64,000 nt of DNA from Cupriavidus necator (GTDB lineage Bacteria; Pseudomonadota; Gammaproteobacteria; Burkholderiales; Burkholderiaceae), in assembly GCA_022041995.1 (NCBI GenBank), contig CP074381.1:1426001-1490000 (forward strand), given 5' to 3'. A program made the position numbers and the translations under genes. This document shows, one piece after another, positions 18,986 through 37,758 of the stretch. How positions within the stretch are numbered: position 1 is the first letter of the stretch; each line of letters begins with the position of its first letter. The notes below the pieces were generated by a model. The model was not told the origin of the DNA, did not search any database, and saw only the letters and a program-made list of their open reading frames with translations.

Positions 18986-19031
18986 GTACAACCAGGCGCG
19001 GCTGGCCCGCGCGAGTCTTCCAGATTCCATG

Positions 19032-19055
19032 GCGGCGCTTCGGCGCCGCTTTTTG
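19032..19055 (+). terminator. Rho-independent terminator after the IclR gene
   Basis: A 7-bp perfect stem (GCGGCGC / GCGCCGC) with a TTCG loop is followed by TTTTTG, 47 bases after the IclR stop. Confidence 0.85.
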
Positions 19056-19078
19056 TTGGATCTTCGGGGATATGCGGC

Positions 19079-19892
19079 GGGTGGGCTTTGGGGGGTGTTT
19101 GGCCTGTTGTCGTCATGCGGTCGGTTGTCGTTCTTGGCGGGCGTGGGCTGTTTCGCCGGCGCAGCCGGCGAGTCACTTCTTGTCCGAGCGACAAGAAGTA
19201 ACCAAGAAACGCGTCGCCTATGCGGCTGGCAATCCATTCCTCGGCGTTGGTGGTTCGGGCGGCGGTGATTTCCGTTCGATGTGGTTGCCCGTTCGAGCCT
19301 GCTACGCCATGTGAGTCAGGGATCGTGCCTGCGTTAACCCACTATTGAACGATCCCCATGCAGGGCGTAGGCCGCCTGCTGCCGACCGTATCGCGGGGAC
19401 GCCTACGGCTGCGCTGCGCGCCGGCCCTAAGCAGAGCGACCGTCCGACCACTTCCTGACCGCGTTGGGTTCGGCATCATCCGCGACCACGCGGTGCGAGC
19501 GCAGCGATGCACTCCGTGCCCGTGCCTCCGACCTGAGATGCTGCGTGCGCGCAGCGCAGCCGAAGGCGTCCCACCGATAACCTGGTTAGCAGGCTGCCAA
19601 CAACCTAAAGTCGGGTTCGTCCAATAGTCCGTCGACGCAGGCACCGGACAGGGAGCGTAGCTGGCTCGAACCACCAATCACATCAGCGGAAATCACCACC
19701 GCCCGAACCACCAACGCCGATGACTTTATTGCCAGCCGCATAGGCGACGCGTTCCTTGGTTACTTTCTGTCGCTCGGACAGAAAGTGACTCGCCGGCTAC
19801 GCCGGCGAAACAGCCCACGCCCGCCAAGAGCCACAAGCCGCCCGCAAGGCTGCAACAGGCCAAACACCACCCCGCCAAGAGCCCACCGCAAG
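19079..19892. repeat. Large palindromic repeat, copy A (about 0.8 kb)
   Basis: The left part (19079 to about 19421) is mirrored on the opposite strand by the right part (about 19548-19892). Best-conserved blocks are the outer TTGGCGGGCGTGGGCTGTTT, CGCGTCGCCTATGCGGCTGG, CGGCGTTGGTGGTTCGGGCG and the inner GACGCCTACGGCTGCGCTGC. A core of about 126 bases (19422-19547) is not mirrored. Each arm carries two small hairpins: a GCCGGCG-type one and an ACTT...AAGT one with loop CGAGC or GCTCG. The same element occurs at 31701-32444 in opposite orientation. Frames of about 110 codons inside it lack ribosome sites and recur only because the repeat recurs, so I call no gene here. Confidence 0.9.
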
Positions 19893-19962
19893 CGCAACCC
19901 TCGCATCCCTGGCAGGGGGTAAACCCTGCCTATCGATATCAACCTCGATGTCTTATTCTTCG

Positions 19963-29156: not shown

Positions 29157-30304
<1,148 letters not shown>

Positions 30305-30341
30305 TTATCCGTCAGAACCAGATCCAGGAGGTTGTTTGCGC

Positions 30342-31688
30342 ATGATTGGACCCCGCGTTGCCCGCCTGCGCCGGGAATGGAACCTGCAGAAGGTTCGCGC
30401 CCTGGCGCGCTATGCGCTGCGCCGCGCCGGCGAAGACCGGCTGCCGCAGGTTTCTGCCAGCCTGACCTTCACCACCGTGCTGGCCGTGGTGCCGGTGCTG
30501 ACCGTGGCATTCGCGCTGCTGGCCGCGTTCCCGGTGTTCCGCGACTTCCGCAACGCCATCGAGGCGTTCCTGTTCCAGAACCTGATCCCGGGCAACGTCA
30601 GTGAATCGATCCAGCGCTACCTCGGCATGTTCGCCAAGAGCGCGCGCGGGCTGACCGCAATGGGCCTGGGCGGGCTGATGGTCACCTCGGTGCTGACCAT
30701 GCTGACCGTGGAAGACGCGCTCAATGCGATCTGGCGCGTCAAGCAGCGTCGCCCGCTGGCGCAGCGGGTGCTGGTGTTCTGGGCGGTGCTGACCTTCGGG
30801 CCGGTGCTGATCGGCGCGAGCCTGTCGATCAGCTCTTACCTGATCTCGATCTCGGCGGGCTATGTCGGCACCATGCCGGTGGGGCTGGGGCTGCTGGTGA
30901 GCGCGACGCCGGTGCTGCTGTCGGCGCTGGCCTTCGCCTTCCTGTACACGGCGGTGCCCAATGCCTATGTCGAATGGCGCGATGCCATCGTGGCCGGCCT
31001 GGTGGCGGCGATCGCGTTCGAGTTTGCCAAGCGCGGCTTCGGCTATTTCATCACGCATATCCCGACTTACACGGCGGTCTACGGCACCTTTGCGGCCCTG
31101 CCGATCTTCTTGCTGTGGATCTACCTGAGCTGGCTGGTGACGCTGCTGGGCGCTGCCATTGCCGCCAACCTGCCGGTAATCCGGCAAGGCTACTGGCGCC
31201 GCCGCACCTTTGCCGGCAGCGAGTTCTTCGATGCGCTTGGCGTGCTGCTGCTGCTCTACCGCGCGCGCGACGAGGTGCCGCGCAGCGTTGGCGAACTGGA
31301 CCTGGGCCGCAAGCTGCGGGTCGAGGCCGATTACCTGTCGGGCCTGCTGGGCAAGCTCAAGGCCATGCATCTGATCGGGCGCCTGCAGCAGGAGCGCGGC
31401 CAGGCTCACTGGGCGCTGCTGTGCGATCCGTCGCAGGTGACGCTGCGCACGCTGCATGACCGGTTGGTACTGAACCTGCCGCGCCTGCCGCGCACCGCGC
31501 TGGCACAGCATCTGCGCGGTGCCGATGCGCTCAAGTCGGTCCTGGACAATCCGCAGCTGGATCAGACGCTGGAGGAGGTGTTCCGGCAGCAGCCGGCCGA
31601 TCTGCCGCCGACGAAGGGGGATGGGGATGGGCAGCGGCAGCGGCGTACGCTGGAGGTTGTGCCACCGGGGTGGCATGGGCAGGTTTGA
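30342..31688 (+). CDS. YihY/BrkB (UPF0761) family membrane protein
   Basis: A 448-residue inner-membrane protein. Six hydrophobic segments lie in the first 290 residues, with the family stretches LPQVSASLTFTTVLAVVPVL, PVFRDFRNAIEAFLFQNLIPG and FIYLSWLVTLLGAAI-like WIYLSWLVTLLGAAI. The C-terminal 150 residues are cytosolic and winged-helix-like. GGAGG precedes the ATG at 30342; a TTG two codons upstream is a possible alternative. The name BrkB is historical, and no nuclease or resistance role is established for this family. It is convergent with the DUF962 gene across the second palindromic repeat. Confidence 0.9.
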   Translation: MIGPRVARLRREWNLQKVRALARYALRRAGEDRLPQVSASLTFTTVLAVVPVLTVAFALLAAFPVFRDFRNAIEAFLFQNLIPGNVSESIQRYLGMFAKSARGLTAMGLGGLMVTSVLTMLTVEDALNAIWRVKQRRPLAQRVLVFWAVLTFGPVLIGASLSISSYLISISAGYVGTMPVGLGLLVSATPVLLSALAFAFLYTAVPNAYVEWRDAIVAGLVAAIAFEFAKRGFGYFITHIPTYTAVYGTFAALPIFLLWIYLSWLVTLLGAAIAANLPVIRQGYWRRRTFAGSEFFDALGVLLLLYRARDEVPRSVGELDLGRKLRVEADYLSGLLGKLKAMHLIGRLQQERGQAHWALLCDPSQVTLRTLHDRLVLNLPRLPRTALAQHLRGADALKSVLDNPQLDQTLEEVFRQQPADLPPTKGDGDGQRQRRTLEVVPPGWHGQV

Positions 31689-31700
31689 GGATTTTTGGGG

Positions 31701-32444
31701 GCTTGGGGTTTTGCGGTTGGGTGTCGTGCTTGGTGGGCGTGGGCTGTTTCGCCGGCGTAGCCGGCGACCTACTTCTTGTCCGAGCGACAAGAAGTAGGCA
31801 AGAAGCGCGTCGCCTGGGCGGCTGGCCATAAATTGCTCGGCGTTGGTGGTTCGGGCGGTGGTGATTTCCGCTGATGTGATTGGTGGTTCGAGCCAGCTAC
31901 GCTCCCTGTCTGGTGCCTGCGTCCACGGACTATTGGACGAACCCGACTTTAGGTTGTTGGCAGCCTGCTAACCAGGTTATCGGTGGGACGCCTACGGCTG
32001 CGCTGCGCGCACGCATCATCGTAGGTCGGAGGCCCGGGCACGGAGTGCATCGCTGCGCTCGCACCGCGTGGTCGCGGATGATGCCGAACCCAACGCGGTC
32101 AGGAAGTGGTCGGACGGTCGCTCTGCTTGGGGCCGGCGCGCAGCGCAGCCGTAGGCGTCCCCCGATACCGGTCTTAGCAGGCTGCCAATCCCCTAAAGTC
32201 GGGTTCGTCCAATAGTCCGTGGACGCAGGCACCGGACAGGGGGCGTAGCCGGGTCGAACGGGCACACCATCGAACGGAAATCACCGCCGCCCGCACTACC
32301 AACGCCGAGGAATGGATTGCCAGCCGCATAGGCGACGCGTTCTTTGGTTACTTTCTGTCGCTCGGACAGAAAGTGACTCGCCGGCTACGCCGGCGAAACA
32401 GCCCACGCCCGCCAAGCACGACACCCAACCGCAAAACCCCAAGC
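31701..32444. repeat. Large palindromic repeat, copy B (about 0.74 kb)
   Basis: The left arm (31701 to about 32010) and right arm (about 32135-32444) are inverted repeats of each other over nearly their whole length, starting with GCTTGGGGTTTTGCGGTTGG on the left and its complement on the right. A core of about 124 bases is unpaired. Read on the minus strand, the inner 500 bases are collinear with copy A read on the plus strand and nearly identical in the core. Outside the shared part, each copy has its own outer arm sequence, and that sequence is matched between the two arms of the same copy. It lies between two convergent genes and could end transcription from both sides. Confidence 0.9.
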
Positions 32445-32457
32445 CAATCCAGCCCCC

Positions 32458-32775
32458 TCAGAACGCAATCCTCCCCCGCCAGATATCGGCATACATCACC
32501 CAATCCCCCATCAGGCTATAGACCGGATGCCGAAACGTAGCCGGCCGGTTCTTCTCAAATCCGAAGTGCCCGACCCAGGCAAAAGCATAGCCTGCGACCA
32601 CCGCGGCAAGCAGCCACCAGGCATTGCCAGTCACCGCCATCGCCACAAGGCACAGTAGCGCCACCGTCGACCCGGCAAAATGCAGCCGCCGGCAGGTACG
32701 GTTTTGGTGTTCGTTCAGGTAATAGGGATAAAAGGCCGCGAAGTTCTCGAACTCGCGCGCGCGGGCGTGGGCCAT
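32458..32775 (-). CDS. DUF962/Mpo1-like membrane protein
   Basis: A 105-residue protein of the DUF962 (yeast Mpo1/YGL010w) family. The typical N-terminus FENFAAFYPYYLNEHQNRTCRRLHFAG, two hydrophobic segments (STVALLCLVAMAVTG, WWLLAAVVAGYAFAWVGHFGFEKN) and the closing HPVYSLMGDWVMYADI are visible. Histidines conserved in the family are proposed iron ligands; yeast Mpo1 is a dioxygenase acting on 2-hydroxy fatty acids. The start at 32775 gives the family N-terminus; the frame is open to 32865. Confidence 0.88.
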   Translation of the reverse strand: MAHARAREFENFAAFYPYYLNEHQNRTCRRLHFAGSTVALLCLVAMAVTGNAWWLLAAVVAGYAFAWVGHFGFEKNRPATFRHPVYSLMGDWVMYADIWRGRIAF

Positions 32776-32877
32776 AGCTGTCTCCGGCAGGTCTTGCTTT
32801 GTGCAGTGTAGACCGTCTGCGCCGAGGGGTCGGATGGCTGGCAGCCGGCGTGGCCGGCCAGCCATCCGCGGCCAGAC

Positions 32878-35859: not shown

Positions 35860-37758
35860 ATGAGCCAACACAGCCAGTTCCGACTGCTCGGCCTGCGCCG
35901 CTTCGCCCCGTTCTTCTGGACCCAGTTCCTGGGGGCGATGAACGACAACGTCTTCAAGGTCGCTTTCACCTCGCTGGTGACCTACCACACGGCGCTGTTC
36001 GAGGGCGTGGACGCGCGCAGCGCGGCTTTCCTGATCTCGGCCATCTTTATCGCGCCGTTCGTGCTGTTCTCGGCCACCAGCGGGCAGATTGCCGACAAGC
36101 TGGAGAAGTCGCGCCTGATCCGGCTGGTCAAGTCACTGGAAATCGCCATCATGGTGCTGGGCCTGGCCGGCTTTGCCTGGCACAGCGCGCCGCTGCTGTA
36201 CGCCGGCACCTTCCTGATGGGTCTGCATTCCACGCTGTTCGGGCCGGTCAAGTTTGCCTACCTGCCGCAGCACCTGGATGAAAGCGAGCTGGTCGGCGGC
36301 AACGGGATGGTGGAGATGGGCACCTTTGTCGCGATCCTGATCGGGACCCTGATCGGCGGCGAGCTGGCCGGGCTGCAGCAGGGCGGCACGATCGTGGGGC
36401 CGATGTACGTGGGTGCGGTGTGCGTGGTGATCGCCGTGGCGGGGCGGCTGGTGTCGGGCCGCATCCCGGTCTCGCCGGCGCCGCAGCCGGACCTGCGCAT
36501 CAACTGGAACCCGTTCTCCGAGACCTGGCGCAACCTGGTGCTGGCGCGCGGCAACCGCACGGTATTCCTGAGCCTGCTCGGCATTTCGTGGCTGTGGTTC
36601 CTGGGCGCCACCTTCCTGACCTCGTTCTTCAGCTATGCCAAGGATGTGCTGGGCGGCGACCAGAACGTAGTGACGCTGCTGCTGGCGGTGTTCTCGCTGG
36701 GCATCGGCACCGGGTCACTGCTGTGTGAGCGTTTGTCCGGGCGCCATGTCGAGATCGGCCTGGTGCCGTTCGGCTCGATCGGCATGACGGTGTTCGCGGT
36801 CGACCTGTACTTTGCCAGCCAGGGGCAGGCGCCGGCCGCGCTCAGTGGCATTGGCGGCTTCCTGGCGGAACCGCATCACTGGCGCGTGCTGGTCGACCTG
36901 TTCCTGCTGGCCATGTTCGGCGGCTTCTACAGCGTGCCGCTGTACGCGCTGATCCAGAGCCGCAGCGCGCCCACGCACCGCGCCCGCATCATCGCCGCCA
37001 ACAACATCCTGAACAGCTTCTTCATGATTGCCGCGTCGCTGCTGGGCGTGGCGATGACGCAGGCGGGCTACAGCATCCCGCAGCTGTTCCTGGTGGTGGG
37101 GCTGCTCAATGCGGTGGTGGCGGTCTACATTTACTCGCTGGTGCCGGAATTCTTGCTGCGCTTTATCGCGTGGATCCTGGTCCATACGCTCTACCGGCTG
37201 CACCGCGTCAACGCCGAGCGCATTCCCGCCGACGGCCCGGCCGTCCTGGTCTGCAACCACGTCAGCTTTGCCGACGCGGTGGTGCTGATGGCCTGCAGCC
37301 CACGCCCGGTGCGCTTCCTGATGGACCACAACATCTTCAGGGTGCCGCTGCTGTCGTGGTTCTTCCGCCAGGCCCGCGCCATCCCGATCGCGCCAGCGCA
37401 TGAGAATCCGGACATGCTCAAGCGTGCCTATGACAGCGTGGCGCAGGCGCTGGGCGATGGGGATCTGGTCTGCATCTTCCCGGAAGGCAAGATCACCGCC
37501 ACCGGCGAGATCAACCCGTTCAAGCAGGGCGTGCAGCAGATCATCCGGCGCACGCCGGTGCCGGTGGTGCCGATGGCGCTGCGCGGGCTGTGGGGCAGCT
37601 TCTTCTCGCGCAAGGGGGCGCCGGCAATGTCGCGGCCGTTCCGACGCGGCATCCTGAACCGGCTGGAACTGGTGGTGGGCGAGCCCGTGCCGCCCGAGGC
37701 CGCCACCCCGGAAGGGCTGCAGCAGATGGTGCAGGCCCTGCGTGGCGACTGGCGTTAA
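35860..37758 (+). CDS. MFS transporter fused to a PlsC-type acyltransferase
   Basis: A 632-residue protein in two parts. Residues 1 to about 425 form a 12-helix MFS carrier like the lysophospholipid flippase LplT (RRFAPFFWTQFLGAMNDNVFKVAF; PVKFAYLPQHLDESELVGGNG). Residues 435-632 are a 1-acyl-glycerol-3-phosphate acyltransferase domain with the HX4D motif in NHVSFADAVVLM and the second motif FPEGKITATGEINPF. In E. coli the same jobs are done by LplT and Aas; here the AMP-binding part of Aas is missing. The probable role is to bring lysophospholipid back across the inner membrane and re-acylate it (inferred from the parts). No break is seen between the domains. Confidence 0.9.
   Translation: MSQHSQFRLLGLRRFAPFFWTQFLGAMNDNVFKVAFTSLVTYHTALFEGVDARSAAFLISAIFIAPFVLFSATSGQIADKLEKSRLIRLVKSLEIAIMVLGLAGFAWHSAPLLYAGTFLMGLHSTLFGPVKFAYLPQHLDESELVGGNGMVEMGTFVAILIGTLIGGELAGLQQGGTIVGPMYVGAVCVVIAVAGRLVSGRIPVSPAPQPDLRINWNPFSETWRNLVLARGNRTVFLSLLGISWLWFLGATFLTSFFSYAKDVLGGDQNVVTLLLAVFSLGIGTGSLLCERLSGRHVEIGLVPFGSIGMTVFAVDLYFASQGQAPAALSGIGGFLAEPHHWRVLVDLFLLAMFGGFYSVPLYALIQSRSAPTHRARIIAANNILNSFFMIAASLLGVAMTQAGYSIPQLFLVVGLLNAVVAVYIYSLVPEFLLRFIAWILVHTLYRLHRVNAERIPADGPAVLVCNHVSFADAVVLMACSPRPVRFLMDHNIFRVPLLSWFFRQARAIPIAPAHENPDMLKRAYDSVAQALGDGDLVCIFPEGKITATGEINPFKQGVQQIIRRTPVPVVPMALRGLWGSFFSRKGAPAMSRPFRRGILNRLELVVGEPVPPEAATPEGLQQMVQALRGDWR

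Follow-up and report, generated by a model that had tools for sequence, protein, structure and literature searches.

Long palindromes are known fragile sites, and they have been studied largely as engineered inserts. In the available text of the reports on the closest described systems, REPs are 20-40 bp long with dimer spacers mostly of 20-100 bp (PMC3733652), a REPIN spans ~71 bp between its 16-mers (PMC3116915), and IS110 and other IS families use REPs as targets (PMC1525189). Work on SbcCD and RecA at interrupted palindromes engineered into the E. coli chromosome deals with the nuclease complex to which SbcD belongs (PMC3315005).

The element reported here was found in a 64,000-nucleotide stretch of Cupriavidus necator DNA (the window), where its copy A forms a long interrupted palindrome at 19079-19892. 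The own genome, G000, comprises 10 contigs and 9.6 Mb. The element resembles REP, BIME and REPIN sequences, the RAYT-linked palindromes with GTAG or CGTC tags, in being extragenic, multicopy and hairpin-forming, in its stem covariation, in lying often behind genes and in serving as an IS target. As a multicopy extragenic hairpin of inverted units it agrees with REPINs in form only; its unit of about 700-860 bp is several times larger, and no RAYT-type gene adjoins it at the three Y1 places of G000. An IS at one point of its end hairpin HP2 (two full-length matches listed) parallels the targeting of REPs by IS110-type elements, as far as the latter is described in the available text of PMC1525189. 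With MITEs and foldback elements it shares a non-coding, dispersed, inverted-repeat character, terminal inverted repeats and the occurrence of filled and empty sites, but a target-site duplication was not recognised by eye at its sites A and B, a partner transposase was not found and its outer limits are fuzzy. Like the palindromes engineered into the E. coli chromosome, it is a long interrupted palindrome in a host with SbcD and is expected to fold and be cut at replication. It differs from them in being natural, present in tens of copies and built of imperfect arms, and the available text on the engineered palindromes mentions no compositional halo (PMC3315005). No description of this repeat was recognised in the available text of the literature on palindromic or MITE-like Cupriavidus repeats, REP/REPIN families and HP2 sequences, and the words Cupriavidus, Ralstonia and Burkholderia are absent from the main text of PMC3733652 and PMC12306157. 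Copy A is best read as one copy of a dispersed, gene-less and apparently non-autonomous repeat. The repeat is a long interrupted palindrome whose ends are REP-like double hairpins, and it occupies more than 30 places per genome.

Structure of the palindromic element

The main features of copy A and its left neighbour are as follows.

19031..19050, + strand: host terminator-like hairpin of the iclR-type gene, adjoining copy A on the left (pattern match and relatives)
19056..19917, no strand: copy A including its degenerate outer tails; limits approximate, set by eye against empty sites in relatives
19079..19421, + strand: left arm (inverted-repeat pairing)
19154..19170, + strand: HP1, left end hairpin (CGCCGGC-loop-GCCGGCG)
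19172..19202, + strand: HP2, left end hairpin with a covarying 13-pair stem
19422..19547, + strand: core, the centre between the arms, 96% identical in copy B
19548..19892, + strand: right arm (inverted-repeat pairing)
19759..19789, - strand: HP2, right end
19791..19807, - strand: HP1, right end

From the outside inward, the element thus comprises a degenerate G/T-rich tail, HP1, HP2, an outer arm, an inner arm and the centre. A sequence-only reading of this DNA had described arms of about 340 bases as near-complements around a core of about 126 bases, and this description stands. Inverted-repeat blocks of 150, 60, 35, 32 and 30 nt, with identities of 91%, 78%, 83%, 81% and 83% respectively, join 19090-19421 to 19547-19872. 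The single-stranded DNA fold of 19079-19892 has a predicted energy of -347.6 kcal/mol, compared with a mean of -169.5 (sd 10.1) in 20 shuffles (z -17.7), and the arms therefore pair far beyond chance. The terminator-like hairpin pattern on the left is found once, as against 1.0 expected in shuffles; the hairpin and its T-run are also present in the closest empty relatives of site A.

The same reading had noted a nearly identical core in a second copy 12 kb away, and the core is indeed 96% identical over 126 nt in copy B (within 31689-32457). Its view that a special conservation of the core is the clue to function has to be given up. Among 19 copies, mean pairwise identity is lowest in the tails (0.46-0.52) and amounts to 0.91-0.93 in the hairpin ends, 0.81-0.98 in the arms (0.95-0.98 in their innermost parts) and 0.87 in the core, so the core is not the most conserved part of the element and is exceeded by the hairpin ends and the innermost arms. 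Nor is it a constant part: a short centre of ~35 nt replaces it in six two-armed and two one-armed copies, and in L039 the core lies in the opposite orientation to its arms, the expected outcome of recombination between arms.

Three ORFs overlapping copy A gave no Pfam match above cut-off, in agreement with the earlier statement that the element holds no gene with a ribosome site, and a coding role was rejected on the basis of these three. Rfam searches at the gathering threshold returned two matches in the window, neither inside the element, and a known structured RNA was likewise rejected. The Rfam family Bcj11 (Burkholderia RNA 11) is matched at 36530-36651 of the window with 64.9 bits.

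Covariation in the HP2 stem was analysed in 21 of the 32 distinct variants, the 11 of other lengths being left out. Pairing holds in 94.5% of cells. Changes on both sides occur in 7 of the 13 pairs (5.2 in shuffles, with this number reached in 14 of 500), and compensatory cells, in which both sides have changed, number 32 as against 11.0 in shuffles. The covariation score is 0.327 compared with 0.136 in shuffles, and slid versions of the stem yield 0 or 1 compensatory cell. The 8 further pair types do not exceed the number in shuffles (9.0), and in 11 of the 21 variants one pair fails to form. The left and right HP2 are unlike in 20 of the 21 copies compared, in one of these only outside the stem; since the two ends differ while their stems pair, it is the local hairpin that appears to be kept and not the arm-to-arm match. 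This covariation shows HP2 to be either constrained or corrected in its structure; quasi-palindrome correction at replication could have such an effect without selection.

Copy number, insertion sites and mobility

A whole-genome search of G000, with the best 40 of 112 candidates scored, identified at least 34 related places (L028-L061), where the sequence-only reading had counted two; copy B is real, and the family is far from being a pair. Both arms and the core are present at 19 of these places; one further place has an IS in an arm and another a broken end. Six others combine two arms with a short centre of about 35 nt (one of these with the same IS). The rest comprise two one-armed copies, also short-centred, a fragment that retains the core, and four remnants consisting of ends alone. 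The listed places are all on contigs C1 and C2; C3-C10, about a quarter of the genome, hold none of them. Genes next to the element were called by a codon-score method, longest-ORF calls being dropped as unreliable in this GC-rich genome, and 5 of 60 flanks stayed uncalled. The called flanks in G000 face a stop codon in 44 of 55 cases and a start in 11, and 25 of the 44 stops lie within 80 nt of HP1. Among the other genomes, 5 of 28 gene-towards calls are more than 580 nt away.

The end module is present in 28 of 60 genus genomes (own genome counted). At the site B locus, the 28 genomes that match G000 best are precisely these, and the element therefore marks one Cupriavidus clade. A 737-nt query matched 9 of 40 genomes, own counted (9 of 24 in the genus and 0 of 16 in other genera). 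The strict HP2 pattern occurs in 8 of 200 family genomes and in 1 of 25 genera; Paraburkholderia hairpins described below fall outside the pattern used in this count. Named orthologues that best match a gene near the element come from Cupriavidus. The element has no match in 80 betaproteobacterial loci that were fetched. Phage records, in which near relatives' records are possibly absent, gave no match, and plasmid records, with the same reservation, gave a single 48-nt match on a Vescimonas plasmid record. A phage or plasmid origin was rejected on this basis. With no Rfam or phage match, no plasmid match beyond these 48 nt and no transposase that could be linked to it, the core was not traced to a known transposon.

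Site A, the position of copy A, was compared in 23 loci (own counted), one of which (G048) is readable only on the transporter side. Only G000 is filled, and copy A is therefore, by this comparison, a young insertion. It lies between the terminator-like hairpin 3' of the iclR-type gene and the start region of the transporter gene. In the closest relatives the terminator T-run and GGGTAAACCC are both kept, some 15-35 nt apart. No target-site duplication was recognised by eye at site A or B, where the relatives compared are about 90% alike.

Copy B lies between two convergent genes and fills the interval from one stop codon to the other:

30246..31688: BrkB-type gene, convergent with the Mpo1-like gene
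31689..32457, - strand: copy B
32458..32865: Mpo1-like gene

Among 30 genomes examined at site B, 26 have both flanking genes usable (G002, G053, G074 and G003 were dropped). The palindrome is full in G000, G061 and G062, and G060 has a truncated form. G008, G014, G064 and G067 carry hollowed shells of 94-171 nt, in which the outer arms are kept and the centre is gone, as expected from central deletion of palindromes. Other hairpin repeats, of CCCTCTCCCGC type, stand in place of the palindrome in G015, G070 and G075 (L189, L194, L195). An end remnant is found in G068, an unrelated 139-nt gap in G018, and 15-62 nt in the other 13. The palindrome of G061 (L201) has left and right ends of two different types, which suggests recombination between subfamilies through HP2. 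Filled and empty orthologous sites at A and B support a mobile history for the element. From the structural, regulatory or mobile role proposed earlier, the mobile part is thereby backed and the end double hairpin looks structurally constrained; the conservation of the core, from which the proposal had started, is not the clue.

How the element would have moved is less clear. Movement by a RAYT transposase, as for a REPIN-like unit, or by an unseen DDE transposase, as for a MITE, is possible but rather doubtful. The palindromic, extragenic, multicopy unit, the hairpins near both ends and the filled and empty sites would all suit such movement. However, a significant element match adjoins 0 of the 3 Y1-transposase places in G000, Y1 domains occur in 59 of 60 genus genomes compared with 28 of 60 for the end module, the target-site duplication is unrecognised by eye at sites A and B, and a transposase lies between the arms only as a secondary IS in two copies. 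RAYT mobilisation was thus considered unsupported, with Y1 genes located away from the element and a distribution that does not match. No autonomous transposon with matching ends was seen among the matches listed. Two identical 1447-bp IS copies sit inside HP2 at the same point (L033:1194-2640 and L056:1122-2568), and they are the only full-length matches among the best 40 of 176 candidates scored. This IS, which we take to be of IS1111 type from its features, was regarded as a passenger and not as the mover of the element.

Strand asymmetry in the flanking DNA

On both sides of the element, the host strand that runs 5'->3' towards the palindrome has little C and much G and T, and this halo fades by ~300 bp. 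It was measured as keto skew (G+T-A-C, read towards the element) at 60 ends in G000 and at 40 ends in eight other Cupriavidus genomes (G060 7, G008 7, G014 6, G015 4, G053 4, G045 7, G074 3 and G055 2, chosen among the matches listed).

80-130 nt: +0.25 in G000 (positive at 54/60 ends); +0.27 in the other genomes (38/40)
100-150 nt: +0.18 (52/60); +0.25 (37/40)
150-200 nt: +0.12 (44/60); +0.18 (29/40)
200-300 nt: +0.05 (37/60); +0.07 (28/40)
300-450 nt: +0.01 (31/60); 0.00 (18/40)

The first ~80 nt outside are largely element tail, and much of the sequence beyond consists of host genes; near-end skew is accordingly in part that of the element's own tail. At the 60 G000 ends, the C content of the towards-strand is 0.34 at a large distance and drops to 0.24 at 100-150 nt. 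Both sides are positive at 100-200 nt in 23 of 26 elements, and one side only in 2. The skew at 80-150 nt is 0.25 for core-bearing copies (40 ends), 0.19 for short-centred copies (14) and 0.15 for remnants and fragments (6). Flanks whose gene reads away from the element show the same sign: +0.24 (10/11) in G000 and +0.17 (10/12) in other genomes at 80-130 nt, and +0.18 (9/11) and +0.21 (11/12) at 100-150 nt. In these small sets the skew is no longer significant at 200-300 nt.

The asymmetry reaches into coding sequence. In the last 100 nt of 30 adjacent G000 genes, third codon positions contain C 0.19 and T 0.19. The values are C 0.20 and T 0.19 in 20 adjacent genes of other genomes, where the far-bin baseline (400-900 nt) is C 0.51. 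Control genes, taken from the window only, have C 0.44 and T 0.07 (46 of 49 called window genes, those not beside the element). From far to near, fourfold sites in G000 change from C 0.46 to 0.16, G 0.48 to 0.67 and T 0.04 to 0.14, and two-fold pyrimidine sites from C 0.82 to 0.44. Codon positions 1 and 2 shift too (C 0.28 to 0.20). Plain cytosine deamination falls short as an explanation, because the gain of G at fourfold sites exceeds that of T.

Site B allows the same genes to be compared with and without the palindrome. The halo of copy B covers the gene ends on its two sides:

31584..31688, + strand: left halo, last 34 codons of the BrkB-type gene, C-poor third positions
32458..32562, - strand: right halo, last 34 codons of the Mpo1-like gene, C-poor third positions

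Third-position C in the last 34 BrkB codons is 0.03 in G000, 0.14 in 8 species with palindrome or shell and 0.26 in 14 without; the corresponding values for the Mpo1-like gene are 0.18, 0.19 and 0.47. The next 33 codons show no difference between groups in BrkB (0.22 vs 0.25) and hardly any in the Mpo1-like gene (0.34 vs 0.38). The 14 species without include the sister G045 and G068 (end remnant), G018 was left out, and the relatedness of the species leaves few independent contrasts. Low C is likewise seen in G015, G070 and G075, which have another repeat in place of the palindrome (BrkB 0.08, Mpo1 0.25). The sister G045, whose site is empty, has values in between (0.12 and 0.29, in the same order). 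These can be read as scars of lost elements. At site A, the skew in the flanks of G000 is within the range of empty relatives; most host DNA there lies beyond 100 nt and power is low.

A search for other palindromes covered the 80 betaproteobacterial loci, 76 of which were long enough, and found 13. As a set, the 13 have a positive skew in the 10-60 nt bin, with a mean of 0.16 (p 0.001). Beyond 60 nt, apart from one palindrome of 189 nt, the skew of the 11 shorter ones is weak or inconsistent, and short palindromes were rejected as a general cause. The two long ones (671 and 756 nt), both from Paraburkholderia, show strong skew at every distance tested; they lie at L083:18980-19650 and L082:19784-20539, respectively. 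These two are mutually related, at 87% over 115 nt; their best match to the Cupriavidus element has an E of 0.026, and their family is multicopy in both genomes (at least 141 and at least 110 matches). Their ends carry two hairpins, the second laid out like HP2 and, by eye, variable with the stem kept.

The Paraburkholderia halo reaches about 1 kb. Keto skew at 200-300 nt is +0.26 for these palindromes, with +0.27 (25/25 ends) and +0.23 (15/15) in the two genomes; at 450-700 nt it is +0.12 and +0.17. With long flanks, 24 and 12 ends have +0.38 and +0.33 at 120-200 nt, the values then drop to +0.06 and +0.11 at 700-1000 nt, and at 1000-1400 nt 22 and 11 ends have +0.03 and +0.06. Some flanks hold further element ends nearby, so that the nearest bins mix element and host and part of the near-end skew belongs to neighbouring elements. 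In adjacent genes, third-position C is 0.35 and 0.39 at 600-1200 nt and decreases to 0.13 and 0.21 over the final 150 nt, the genes being called with Cupriavidus codon scores, with both gene directions pooled and without control genes.

Possible origin of the asymmetry

We give an even chance to the reading that natural palindromes are chronically broken and repaired and that a mutational halo results, the breakage being inferred from base composition. The palindrome would fold during replication, a hairpin nuclease (SbcCD, for example) would cut it, and the broken ends would be resected and then re-copied. After 5' resection, the single strand on both sides is the one reading towards the break, which is the C-poor strand here; this 3'-ended strand would be single-stranded at each round and would mutate. 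The element would then be a chronic break site and the halo its scar. In a close variant, repair synthesis running towards the palindrome from both sides would leave a leading-strand-like composition. The excess of G over T at fourfold sites would have to be supplied by a GC-favouring background. The element folds strongly as single-stranded DNA (z -17.7) and its host encodes SbcD (186.6 bits), two properties expected of SbcCD-sensitive palindromes, and replication-dependent cleavage in vivo is predicted. SbcD is over the cut-off in 56 of 60 genus genomes, and loss of SbcCD was therefore rejected as the reason for tolerance of the element.

Several observations count against breakage. Recombination-dependent repair resects kilobases, and the Cupriavidus halo extends only ~300 bp. 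The C-poor site B species without a palindrome require a past loss of the element. The young copy A has no clear halo, as expected for its youth, with low power in its flanks. One genome that bears the element, G074, lacks an SbcD match.

Three other explanations were weighed. The skew may have come first, the element preferring G/T-rich, C-poor stretches behind genes so that the halo marks good targets. Some site choice does exist, with 44 of 55 called flanks being gene 3' ends, and the genes at site B can be skewed where no palindrome stands (G015, G070, G075 and partly G045); we nevertheless regard this order of events as unlikely. A skewed target was not needed at site A, which among the loci compared is filled only in G000 and where the flanks show no more skew than in empty relatives; third-position C of Mpo1 is ordinary (0.47) in the 14 species without a palindrome, and the smooth decay at synonymous sites (300 bp in Cupriavidus, ~1 kb in Paraburkholderia) is unlike a target motif.

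Selection at the nucleic-acid level would hold that C-poor, G/T-rich flanks help RNA or DNA near the hairpin, for example by avoiding Rho loading or unwanted pairing. This seems quite unlikely: both sides are affected whatever the gene direction, and coding shifts extend several hundred bp in Paraburkholderia, even though the G/T-rich element tails and the shift at codon positions 1 and 2 (C 0.28 to 0.20) would be in keeping with it. Transcription, with polymerase or R-loops stalling at the hairpin and the non-template strand exposed to damage, would fit the 44 of 55 neighbours that read towards the element, where the C-poor strand is the non-template one. The gene-away flanks (11 ends in G000 and 12 in other genomes) have the same sign and a similar size, which speaks against transcription as the cause and makes it quite unlikely.

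The breakage reading extends to a broader proposal, to which we give slightly less than an even chance. Natural long palindromes in bacteria would be chronic break sites. Their repeated repair would write a mutation gradient, symmetric yet strand-asymmetric, that extends hundreds of bases into adjoining genes, C being lost from the strand whose 3' end lies at the palindrome; past and present fragile sites would then be readable from composition. The available text of the literature on strand asymmetry beside palindromes and on natural palindromes and SbcCD contains no recognised description of such a halo. In two genera whose palindrome sequences are unrelated, dozens of natural palindromes per genome have a measurable mark in the genes beside them. 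Should this mark be a repair scar, it would offer a sequence-only readout of chronic breakage and single-strand exposure. An intergenic repeat can also accompany altered codon usage and altered first and second codon positions in adjoining genes. Genome G074, which bears the end module without an SbcD match, provides an interesting natural test of the breakage model.
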